64,000 bases of DNA from Gulosibacter sediminis (GTDB taxonomy: Bacteria > Actinomycetota > Actinomycetes > Actinomycetales > Microbacteriaceae), in assembly GCF_023370115.1 (NCBI RefSeq), contig NZ_CP097160.1, positions 1,178,001-1,242,000 on the forward strand. Direction: 5' to 3'. The translations under genes and the position numbers were made by a program. This document shows, in pieces, positions 1,683 through 4,079 of the stretch. Numbering within the stretch: the first letter of the stretch is position 1; every line of letters begins with the position of its first letter. Below the pieces are notes generated by a model. The model worked only from the letters and a program-made list of their open reading frames with translations, ran no database searches and was not told the DNA's origin.

Positions 1683-3110
1683 TCAGAGGTCCAGCAGCGA
1701 ATCGAGCGAAATCGGCGCGTCGGCTTCGTCGCGCTCGCCGAGCAGCGTGCGCCACATGCCGGGGAAGTCGGGCAGCGTCTTCGTGGTGCACTCGACATCG
1801 TCGAGCTGCACCTCGTCGACGGCGAGGCCGATCAGCGCGCCCGTGGTGGCCATGCGGTGGTCGGCGTAGCACTGCCACAGCGCGCCGTGGAGCGGGGCCG
1901 GGCGAATGATGAGCCCGTCGTCGGTCTCTTCGACGTCGGCGCCGACGCGGCCGAGCTCGGTCGCGAGGGCGGCGAGGCGATCGGTCTCGTGACCGCGGAG
2001 GTGGCCGACGCCGCGAATGACGCTCTCGCCCTCGCAGAGGGCGAGCAGGCCTGCGATGTTCGGGGCGAGCTCGCCGCCGACCGAGAGGTCGAGGTCGACT
2101 CCGGCCGGTCGGGCGCCCGCGACAATGCCCTGCTCGACGGTGCAGGTGAGCAGCCCATCCTCGAGCGTGATCTGCGCGCCGAAGCGCGGCAGGATCTCGC
2201 GCAGCAGGTCGCCGACCTGGGCGGTCGACTCGGGCCAGTTGGGGATGCGCACCGTGCCGCCGGCGATGATGCTCGCGATGAGGAACGGCGCCGCGTTCGA
2301 GAGGTCGGGCTCGACCGTGAGCTCGCCGCCACCGATCTCGCCCGGCTCGACGCGCCAGGTGCGCGCGTCGACCGCGTCGGCGGTGACGCCGCGGCCCTTG
2401 AGCACGTCGAGGGTCATGTTGATGTGCGGCAGCGATGGCAGCGATTCGCCGGTGTGCGTGAGCGTGAGGCCCTGCTCGAAGCGGGGCGCGACGAGCAGCA
2501 GGCCCGAAACGAATTGGCTGGATGCGCTGGCATCGATCTCGAGTTCGCCACCCGCGATGCGCCCGATGCCCTGCACCGAGAACGGCAGGCGCCCGCCCGA
2601 GTCACCGCTCACTTTGATGCCGAGCCCGCGCAGGGCCTCGAGCGTGGCCGCCATCGGGCGGCGTCGCGCGCCCTCGTCACCGTCAAAGGTGACCGGACCG
2701 AGCGCAAGGCCCGCGAGCGGAGGTACAAAGCGCATGACCGTGCCGGCGAGGCCGCAGTCGATCGACACTCCGCCGGACAGCTCCTCAGCTGGCGTGATGA
2801 CGAGGTCGTCGGCCGCGTTGTGCGTGCTCGCCACGCGTTCGACGCCGGTGCCGAGCTCCTCGAGCGCCTGCGCCATGAGGATCGTGTCGCGCGCGTGCAG
2901 CGGGGCGTGCAGCGTCGTCGGCTCGTGCGCAATCGCTGAGAGCACGAGCTCGCGGTTCGTCAGCGACTTCGAACCGGGAACCTCGATGTCGGCGTCGAGC
3001 GGAACCTCGGCAATCGGCGCGCGCCAATAGCCGGGCTCGCCAGAAGTCGCCTCGTGCACGCCGTCGCCGTACAAATCGAACTCATCGCCGGAATATCTGA
3101 AGATCTCCAT
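1683..3110 (-). CDS. aroA: 3-phosphoshikimate 1-carboxyvinyltransferase (EPSP synthase)
   Basis: AroA transfers the enolpyruvyl group of PEP to shikimate-3-phosphate, the sixth shikimate-pathway step. The N-terminal substrate-binding motif VPGSKSLTNRELVL is present, as are the basic GDEGARRRPM segment and the C-terminal DHRMATTGALIGLA motif. At 475 residues it is a little longer than the roughly 430 typical, because of the actinobacterial N-terminal extension. The gene is divergent from the sigma-factor gene. Its first codons overlap the SigR-type promoter that fires in the opposite direction at 3090-3115. It heads the aroA-rsgA-hisN unit. Confidence 0.95.
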   Translation of the reverse strand: MEIFRYSGDEFDLYGDGVHEATSGEPGYWRAPIAEVPLDADIEVPGSKSLTNRELVLSAIAHEPTTLHAPLHARDTILMAQALEELGTGVERVASTHNAADDLVITPAEELSGGVSIDCGLAGTVMRFVPPLAGLALGPVTFDGDEGARRRPMAATLEALRGLGIKVSGDSGGRLPFSVQGIGRIAGGELEIDASASSQFVSGLLLVAPRFEQGLTLTHTGESLPSLPHINMTLDVLKGRGVTADAVDARTWRVEPGEIGGGELTVEPDLSNAAPFLIASIIAGGTVRIPNWPESTAQVGDLLREILPRFGAQITLEDGLLTCTVEQGIVAGARPAGVDLDLSVGGELAPNIAGLLALCEGESVIRGVGHLRGHETDRLAALATELGRVGADVEETDDGLIIRPAPLHGALWQCYADHRMATTGALIGLAVDEVQLDDVECTTKTLPDFPGMWRTLLGERDEADAPISLDSLLDL

Positions 3111-3115
3111 CGGTT
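3090..3115 (+). promoter_or_regulatory. Candidate SigR/SigH-type autoregulatory promoter of the sigma-factor gene
   Basis: GGAAT at 3090-3094 is followed after exactly 18 bases by GTT at 3113-3115. This matches the GGAAT-N18-GTT consensus of the Streptomyces SigR regulon and is close to the mycobacterial SigH consensus. It reads toward the sigma gene and lies mostly inside the antisense of the aroA start region. Transcription from here would include the ribosome-binding site GGAGG (3176-3180) and the upstream ATG at 3184. This is motif matching only. Confidence 0.6.
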
Positions 3116-3183
3116 ACACACACTATCGCGCAACCGCGCGCGAAGGATGAAGCACCGCACCAGCAGACCGCGAACGGAGGACG

Positions 3184-3840
3184 ATGAGCGCCGTGCTAAC
3201 AAGCGTTCTCGCCGTAGACTCGTCTGCGATGAATTCCAGTGATGATGCACCGCGGCGAGCCAGCGACTCGACGAGCCTCGCAACGCTCTTTGAGGAACAG
3301 GCGATTCCGCTCCTCGACCAGCTGTACGGACACGCGATGCGGATGACGCGGAACCCGGCCGATGCCCAAGACCTCGTGCAAGAGACCTTCACGAAGGCGT
3401 TCCAGTCGTTCGCGTCGTTCAAGCAGGGCACCAACCTGCGGGCGTGGCTGTACCGCATCCAGACGAACCTCTACATCAACAACTACCGCAAGCAGCAGCG
3501 CACGCCGTACCAAAACCCGCTCGAAGAGCTTGAGGACTGGCAGCTCGGCGGGGCCGAGTCGTACACCTCGACGACCACCTCGCGCTCGGCGGAGGCGGAA
3601 GCGGTCGACAATCTGCCCTCCGACGCCGTGAAGGATGCGCTGGCCGAGATCCCCGAAGAGTTTCGGGTCGCGGTGCTCCTGGCCGATGTGCAGGGCTTCT
3701 CCTATAAGGAAATCGCCGAAATTATGGACACCCCCACCGGCACGGTGATGAGCCGATTGCACCGCGGGCGCAAGCTGCTGCGGGATCGGCTCCGGGACTA
3801 CGCCGGGGAATACGGAATTGGAAGGGAGCAGGAATCATGA
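3184..3840 (+). CDS. sigR: ECF RNA polymerase sigma factor, SigR/SigH type
   Basis: This is a group 4 sigma factor of the thiol-oxidative-stress type. Region 2 is seen around [20 protein letters not shown] with [10 protein letters not shown]. Region 4 is the helix-turn-helix stretch [20 protein letters not shown] with [10 protein letters not shown]. It overlaps the zinc anti-sigma gene by four bases (ATGA), the usual SigR-RsrA arrangement. Two starts are plausible. ATG 3184 (218 residues) has GGAGG three bases upstream. ATG 3229 (203 residues) lies 8 nt after a TAGACT -10 box at 3215-3220, so it could be a leaderless start. The likely targets, thioredoxin and mycothiol genes, are not in the window. 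Confidence 0.9.
3215..3220 (+). promoter_or_regulatory. -10 box for a possible leaderless short sigma-factor transcript
   Basis: TAGACT ends 8 nt before the in-frame ATG at 3229. The same geometry is seen at about a dozen other genes in this window. No convincing -35 element is visible. It would produce a protein 15 residues shorter than the ribosome-binding-site-led form. Confidence 0.45.
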
Positions 3841-4079
3841 CCGACTGTGGCTGCGATAAAGCACGCCAGGAACTCGAAGAGTACCTGCGTCAGGAAATGT
3901 GCACCACGGATCGTGAGGCCATCAAGGAGCACCTCGCGACGTGCGAGGACTGCTCTGGTGAGGCTCACGTCAACCAGGTGATCACGCAGGTCGTGCGGCG
4001 TTCGTGCAACGAGGAGGTCGCGCCGGAGGAGCTGCGCGCCCGCGTCCTCAGCTCGCTGCGCGGTGGCGCAACCGCATAG
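3837..4079 (+). CDS. rsrA: Zinc-binding anti-sigma factor, RsrA/RshA type
   Basis: This 80-residue protein has the zinc anti-sigma (ZAS) motif H-x3-C-x2-C in HLATCEDC, with further cysteines at the N-terminus (DCGCDK), at MCTT and at RSCNEE. In the RsrA family, oxidation of the motif cysteines to a disulfide releases zinc and frees the cognate sigma factor. The start ATG overlaps the sigma stop codon (ATGA), so the two are co-translated, which is expected for a stoichiometric inhibitor. The gene is followed by a strong terminator hairpin. Confidence 0.9.

Follow-up and report, generated by a model that had tools for sequence, protein, structure and literature searches.

The sigR locus of Gulosibacter sediminis raises the question of whether one sigma factor gene gives rise to two proteins, each with its own promoter and its own start codon. 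In the window, by which we mean the whole stretch of 64,000 nucleotides that was analysed, a forward-strand ORF encodes a long form of 218 aa (3184..3840 including the stop), and a second ATG, in frame and 15 codons downstream, would open a short form of 203 aa that ends at the same stop (3229..3840). The product is a SigR/SigH-type ECF sigma factor (SigH_actino), scoring 295 bits against TIGR02947 (curated cut-off 251.55). It is followed on the same strand by rsrA (3837..4079), which encodes the zinc anti-sigma factor RsrA (TIGR03988, 68 bits against a cut-off of 62.5) and whose ATG overlaps the sigR stop codon as ATGA. Upstream of both starts, GGAAT (3090-3094) and GTT (3113-3115) stand 18 nt apart, and a TAGACT box (3215..3220) lies between the two starts. 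An earlier sequence-only reading had picked out these elements and the in-frame ATGs, all of which we find in the window sequence where it had placed them, and had proposed that they may follow the feedback design of Streptomyces coelicolor. There, the promoters sigRp1 and sigRp2 are described in excerpts of two reports as serving a stable SigR and an unstable SigR' (PMC5472188, PMC4921905); the p2 transcript yields SigR', which is 58 residues longer and is degraded by Clp (excerpt of PMC5472188).

We compared the locus with its counterparts in related genomes. We take the organism to belong to the family Microbacteriaceae and to the order that is called Micrococcales in common usage. The family set comprised 117 loci, 10 from genomes of the genus and 107 from others, and grew to 123 when the last six matches were added later. 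Ten of the eleven genus genomes were used; the one left out (G010, 2.0 Mb) gave just a weak best match to SigR (E 1e-18), and a sigR orthologue seems to be absent from it. Four of the 120 further genomes in the Microbacteriaceae search had no match at E 1e-60. From other families of the order we examined 84 loci (70, then 14 more) out of 136 matches, and from other orders 48 loci out of 105 matches, in both cases partly the top-ranked matches and partly loci hand-picked for family spread. From a first set of 80 relative loci, L009-L029 and L064 were inspected and left uncounted, and the remaining 58 were left out. Related genomes enter all counts as separate rows. The search for the short start was initially limited to 70 and then to 80 codons, the length limit being lifted for the misses only.

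What is new here is that TAGACT is recognised as a box of the -10 type whose distance from the second ATG, exactly 8 nt, recurs in relatives. TAnnnT stands at exactly this distance from an in-frame ATG in 109/117 family loci; any other distance from 0 to 30 nt gives at most four cases, and of 2320 other ATGs in these loci, 3 have a TAnnnT at 8 nt. The count rose to 111/117 when GTG was also allowed and to 115/117 after an unlimited-length search of the six misses, and all six loci added later had the arrangement (total 121/123). ATG 3229 has no Shine-Dalgarno sequence in front of it; TAGACT-N8 precedes it instead. Beyond the family, the arrangement is found in 66/70 loci from other families of the order and in 11/14 further ones (77/84). 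The seven misses there consist of three with a 7-nt gap and ATG, one with an 8-nt gap and TTG, and three with nothing of the kind. Among the sampled loci of other orders, 24/48 have it. The commonest boxes are TAGACT (59) and TAGAAT (24) in the family (n=110 loci) and TAGGCT in the other families (37/66).

The two family exceptions are L213 and L097. L213, from genome G097, has TAGGAT 6 nt before a GTG, which is the usual leaderless spacing, and there the TAG forms an in-frame stop; a SigR-type motif was searched for upstream of it and was not found. L097, from the genus itself, is without the short-start box, yet the SigR-type motif is present; TAGACT occurs upstream, but the start codon is missing at the expected place. 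In four other loci (L133, L170, L191 and L215), 87 to 112 codons separate the short start from the sigma core, a stretch that is visibly acidic in at least three of them.

We refer to the box as P1 and consider that it would be read by the housekeeping sigma factor. It lacks a conserved -35 element, the information between -50 and -30 reaching at most 0.45 bit per position, and an excerpt of PMC3898074 likewise reports no conserved -35 for TAnnnT promoters of Mycobacterium tuberculosis. Base counts around P1 show no conspicuous AT-rich stretch like that of WblC sites, and we therefore claim no WblC control.

The start of the long form was located by scanning upstream of the short start for a Shine-Dalgarno-led ATG or GTG in an open frame. 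Such a start lies in frame in 95/111 family loci, compared to 6 in frame +1 and none in frame +2 (50, 2 and 0 for ATG alone). Since frame +2 is shut by the TAG of the P1 box itself, the fair control is frame +1, in which the first stop comes after a median of 47 codons, much as in the true frame (49). In the other families the corresponding numbers are 27/66 in frame, 2 in frame +1 and 1 in frame +2. The rule chose GTG 3193 in the window, not ATG 3184. We keep ATG 3184 as the long start because the Shine-Dalgarno sequence GGAGG (3176..3180, forward strand) stands directly before it, just 3 nt upstream, and because it aligns with where relatives begin, for example L091 with MIAVLTG. The long form would thus have 15 codons of its own (3184..3228), and the extensions in the family range from about 7 to 50 residues. 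Differences within the extensions of eight close pairs number 18/13/38 at codon positions 1/2/3. The motif [VLMAI]L[ED], which was picked after viewing the sequences, occurs within the first 16 residues of 46/95 extensions, compared to a shuffled mean of 11.3 and maximum of 21. The P2 leader region (3122-3260) showed nothing unusual when folded as RNA (z 0.69, 153/200 shuffles folding as well or better).

These counts bear on the idea that the short leaderless form alone is made, P2 merely raising transcription and the upstream ATG being hardly used. We judge this unlikely, although it has more to recommend it than the other alternatives. The short-start box is indeed distributed more widely than the long start, since just 27 of the 66 box-bearing loci among the 70 from other families have a Shine-Dalgarno-led long start, and in-frame stops in L213, L277 and L282 mean that these loci cannot produce a long form. 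By the scan rule, P2 occurs without such a start in 17/115 family loci and in 31/66 other-family loci, and the long form is thus less general than the short one. Within the Microbacteriaceae, however, the preponderance of starts in the right frame over the similarly open frame +1 argues for use of the upstream start, as do the third-position excess and the recurring N-terminal motif in the extensions.

P2 itself (3090..3115, forward strand) reads as a SigR-type autoregulatory promoter with a -35 GGAATA and a -10 GTT separated by 17 nt. Searching for GGAAT-N16..20-GTT up to 300 nt upstream of the short start recovered it in 109/111 family loci, while 100 block shuffles averaged 1.2 (at most 5) and the opposite strand gave 0. 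The comparison with relatives that the earlier reading had called for thus came out in its favour, the GGAAT-N18-GTT motif and both starts being conserved. The other families have the GGAAT version in 43/66 loci (shuffle mean 0.5) and GGAAY-N17..19-GTT in 54/66 (shuffle mean 0.8), with unrelated spacers. For the last 20 loci added, GGAAY versions within 500 nt of the core were found in 4 of the 6 most divergent family loci and in 11 of the 14 others. Taking all sets together, 140 of the 141 loci that have both P2 and a Shine-Dalgarno-led long start show the order P2, long start, P1, short start.

The P2 motif straddles the beginning of the divergent aroA (1683..3110, minus strand), a point on which the earlier reading was silent. 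It is very improbable that the GGAAT/GTT match is simply aroA coding sequence on the other strand and that P2 does not exist. Of the 109 family loci with the motif, 102 have the presumed aroA start (CAT) within the spacer; an open reverse frame for aroA was seen in 100 of 101 loci checked, and aroA may have a share in the conservation of P2 in those 102 loci. But the other seven retain the motif with no CAT in its spacer, the motif recurs in the other families where the spacers are unrelated, and in this genome it also stands before a thioredoxin gene and trxB. On the minus strand, TAnnnT precedes the presumed aroA start at 7, 8 and 9 nt in 16, 35 and 49 cases among 101 family loci, and aroA looks near-leaderless. 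In the window the putative aroA -10 box, TAGTGT (3120..3125, minus strand), is 9 nt before the aroA ATG and overlaps the site, near 3121-3124, where the P2 transcription start is expected. Both promoters would melt the same stretch of DNA, and aroA may therefore not be transcribed while P2 fires.

P2 is probably read by SigR itself. The M. tuberculosis SigH consensus is given in an excerpt of PMC4803200 as GGAAYR-N17-18-GTT. On both strands of the 2.75-Mb genome of our organism, GGAAT-N17..19-GTT occurs 96 times, compared to 16 for the reversed control pattern, and the stricter GGAATA-N17-GTT occurs 9 times, compared to 1. Six of these nine sites sit 33-68 nt before the start of a script-picked ORF: 54 nt before a thioredoxin gene, 68 nt before sigR, 52 nt before an Fe-S biosynthesis protein gene, 33 nt before a PRK-family kinase gene, 55 nt before an NAD(P)H-binding protein gene and 49 nt before trxB. 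A seventh is 296 nt away from the RbpA gene, and the picked ORF is 284 and 302 nt away from the remaining two. Promoter-like sites of the GGAAY-N17-18-GTT type are thus found before thiol-redox genes (thioredoxin, trxB, sigR). The PRK-family kinase and NAD(P)H-binding NmrA-like genes (L368 and L369) are candidate SigR targets.

In the window the P1 box is written within the extension codons GTA GAC TCG of the long form. The codon that carries the TA of the box is CTA or GTA in 107/110 family loci, although each of these two codons makes up 0.11% of sigR-core codons, and the residues over the box vary (LDW, VDS, LES, VGL and others). Such rare codons with differing residues indicate that the constraint acts on the DNA. 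The notion that only the long form is made and that TAGACT-N8-ATG is a conserved peptide, V/L-D-S/W-x-x-M, rather than a promoter, deserves next to no credence, and we reject it on codon use: although the in-frame box does translate, it is spelled with these rare codons, and box and start persist in L213, L277 and L282, where in-frame stops bar the long form.

We then considered where P1 transcription would begin. In 464 kb scanned of the same genome, the gap between TAnnnT and a candidate start was 6 nt in 27 cases, 7 nt in 25 and 8 nt in 6, sigR being among the last, compared to 1, 5 and 3 for control starts late in genes. A repeat scan that included shorter genes gave 30, 25 and 8. At 8 nt, sigR has a wider gap than the 6-7 nt that typify leaderless starts here. 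In the 7-nt class a pyrimidine precedes the start in 22/25 cases, as expected if the start-codon purine is the first RNA base; the rule is not strict, since the 6-nt class has just 17/30. At sigR, a G immediately precedes the short start in 99/111 family loci, compared to 39% G at third positions of the sigR core, and positions -2/-1 are pyrimidine-purine in 102/111 family loci and in 55/66 loci of the other families. Together with the spacing in this genome, this suggests that P1 transcription begins at the G just 5' of the ATG (G3228, a 1-nt leader) or else at the A (A3229, leaderless). The mRNA of the short form should thus have no leader or one of 1 nt, with its promoter embedded in the extension codons of the long form. 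Reporters in Mycobacterium smegmatis are described, in an excerpt of PMC4633059, as showing that an ATG or GTG at +1 is necessary and sufficient for leaderless initiation. One could speculate, though we are inclined to doubt it, that the 8-nt gap was selected for a start at the G before the ATG (mRNA 5'-GAUG), the one-base leader weakening leaderless initiation and so keeping SigR from outnumbering RsrA, a job done in Streptomyces by GTC; the spacing would also keep the TAG of the box out of the long-form frame.

Taken together, a SigR-type promoter precedes a long in-frame start and a second promoter-like element lies between the two starts. Elements, order and conservation are established at the level of sequence, and we predict that both proteins exist. 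We are confident that the locus is a SigR-RsrA disulfide-stress switch built from two nested transcription-translation units, P2-long and P1-short. P2, fired by SigR, would give a leadered mRNA bearing a Shine-Dalgarno sequence, from which long SigR would be translated from ATG 3184. P1, a -10-only housekeeping-type promoter, would give an mRNA that starts at, or one base before, ATG 3229 and is translated leaderlessly into short SigR. Under reducing conditions P1 would maintain a basal pool of SigR bound to RsrA, and under disulfide stress freed SigR would fire P2 and add the long form. By analogy with Streptomyces, the long form may be the unstable one and so give negative feedback.

The proposed likeness to Streptomyces stands in part. 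As described in excerpts of the S. coelicolor reports, that locus likewise combines a SigR-dependent promoter and an ATG upstream, for the longer form, with a further promoter downstream for the short one, and rsrA comes next; the motif of P2 here marks redox genes. The extension in S. coelicolor has 58 residues, however, compared to 15 here, and its short form is initiated from a GTC behind a strong RBS (AGGAGGTG), whereas here the short form would start at TAnnnT-N8-ATG without a Shine-Dalgarno sequence, leaderless or nearly so, from a promoter inside the extension. Eight loci of other orders with the Streptomyces-like N-terminus GPVxGTD (L303, L306-L308, L310-L312 and L314) have no N8 box.

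Other actinobacterial systems share single features with the locus. According to excerpts of the sources, M. tuberculosis sigE has a leaderless downstream promoter and an upstream one recognisable by SigE or SigH (PMC4921905), and M. tuberculosis sigH has two promoters, but no leaderless short SigH start is described in those excerpts (PMC4921905, PMC3898074). Corynebacterium glutamicum sigH-rshA likewise has housekeeping-type -10 boxes upstream (TAGAAT, TAAAGT and TAGAGT), but its transcripts, with 5' ends mapped 22, 89 and 93 nt upstream of the start codon in the excerpt of PMC3489674, are therefore leadered. Leaderless genes of Actinobacteria in general have TAnnnT just 5' of the start codon, at about 12 nt from the first T (a 6-nt gap) in the excerpted text, whereas sigR here keeps a gap of 8 (PMC3160421, PMC4633059). 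In the titles and abstract openings searched, a coverage that takes in few of the subscription journals, we found no leaderless SigR/SigH short form in this order.

Our comparison suggests that the TAnnnT-N8 short start has been retained across the sampled order and in half of the sampled loci from other orders, and that most Microbacteriaceae have a two-isoform design. It appears to work like the Streptomyces scheme, with a short form that starts differently, from a leaderless ATG rather than from an RBS-led GTC. If so, basal supply (leaderless) and stress amplification (Shine-Dalgarno-led) would be kept apart by their promoters and also by their route of translation. The start-codon annotation of these sigma factors would become correctable, and the natural extensions of the family would form a comparison set for locating the degron of SigR'.
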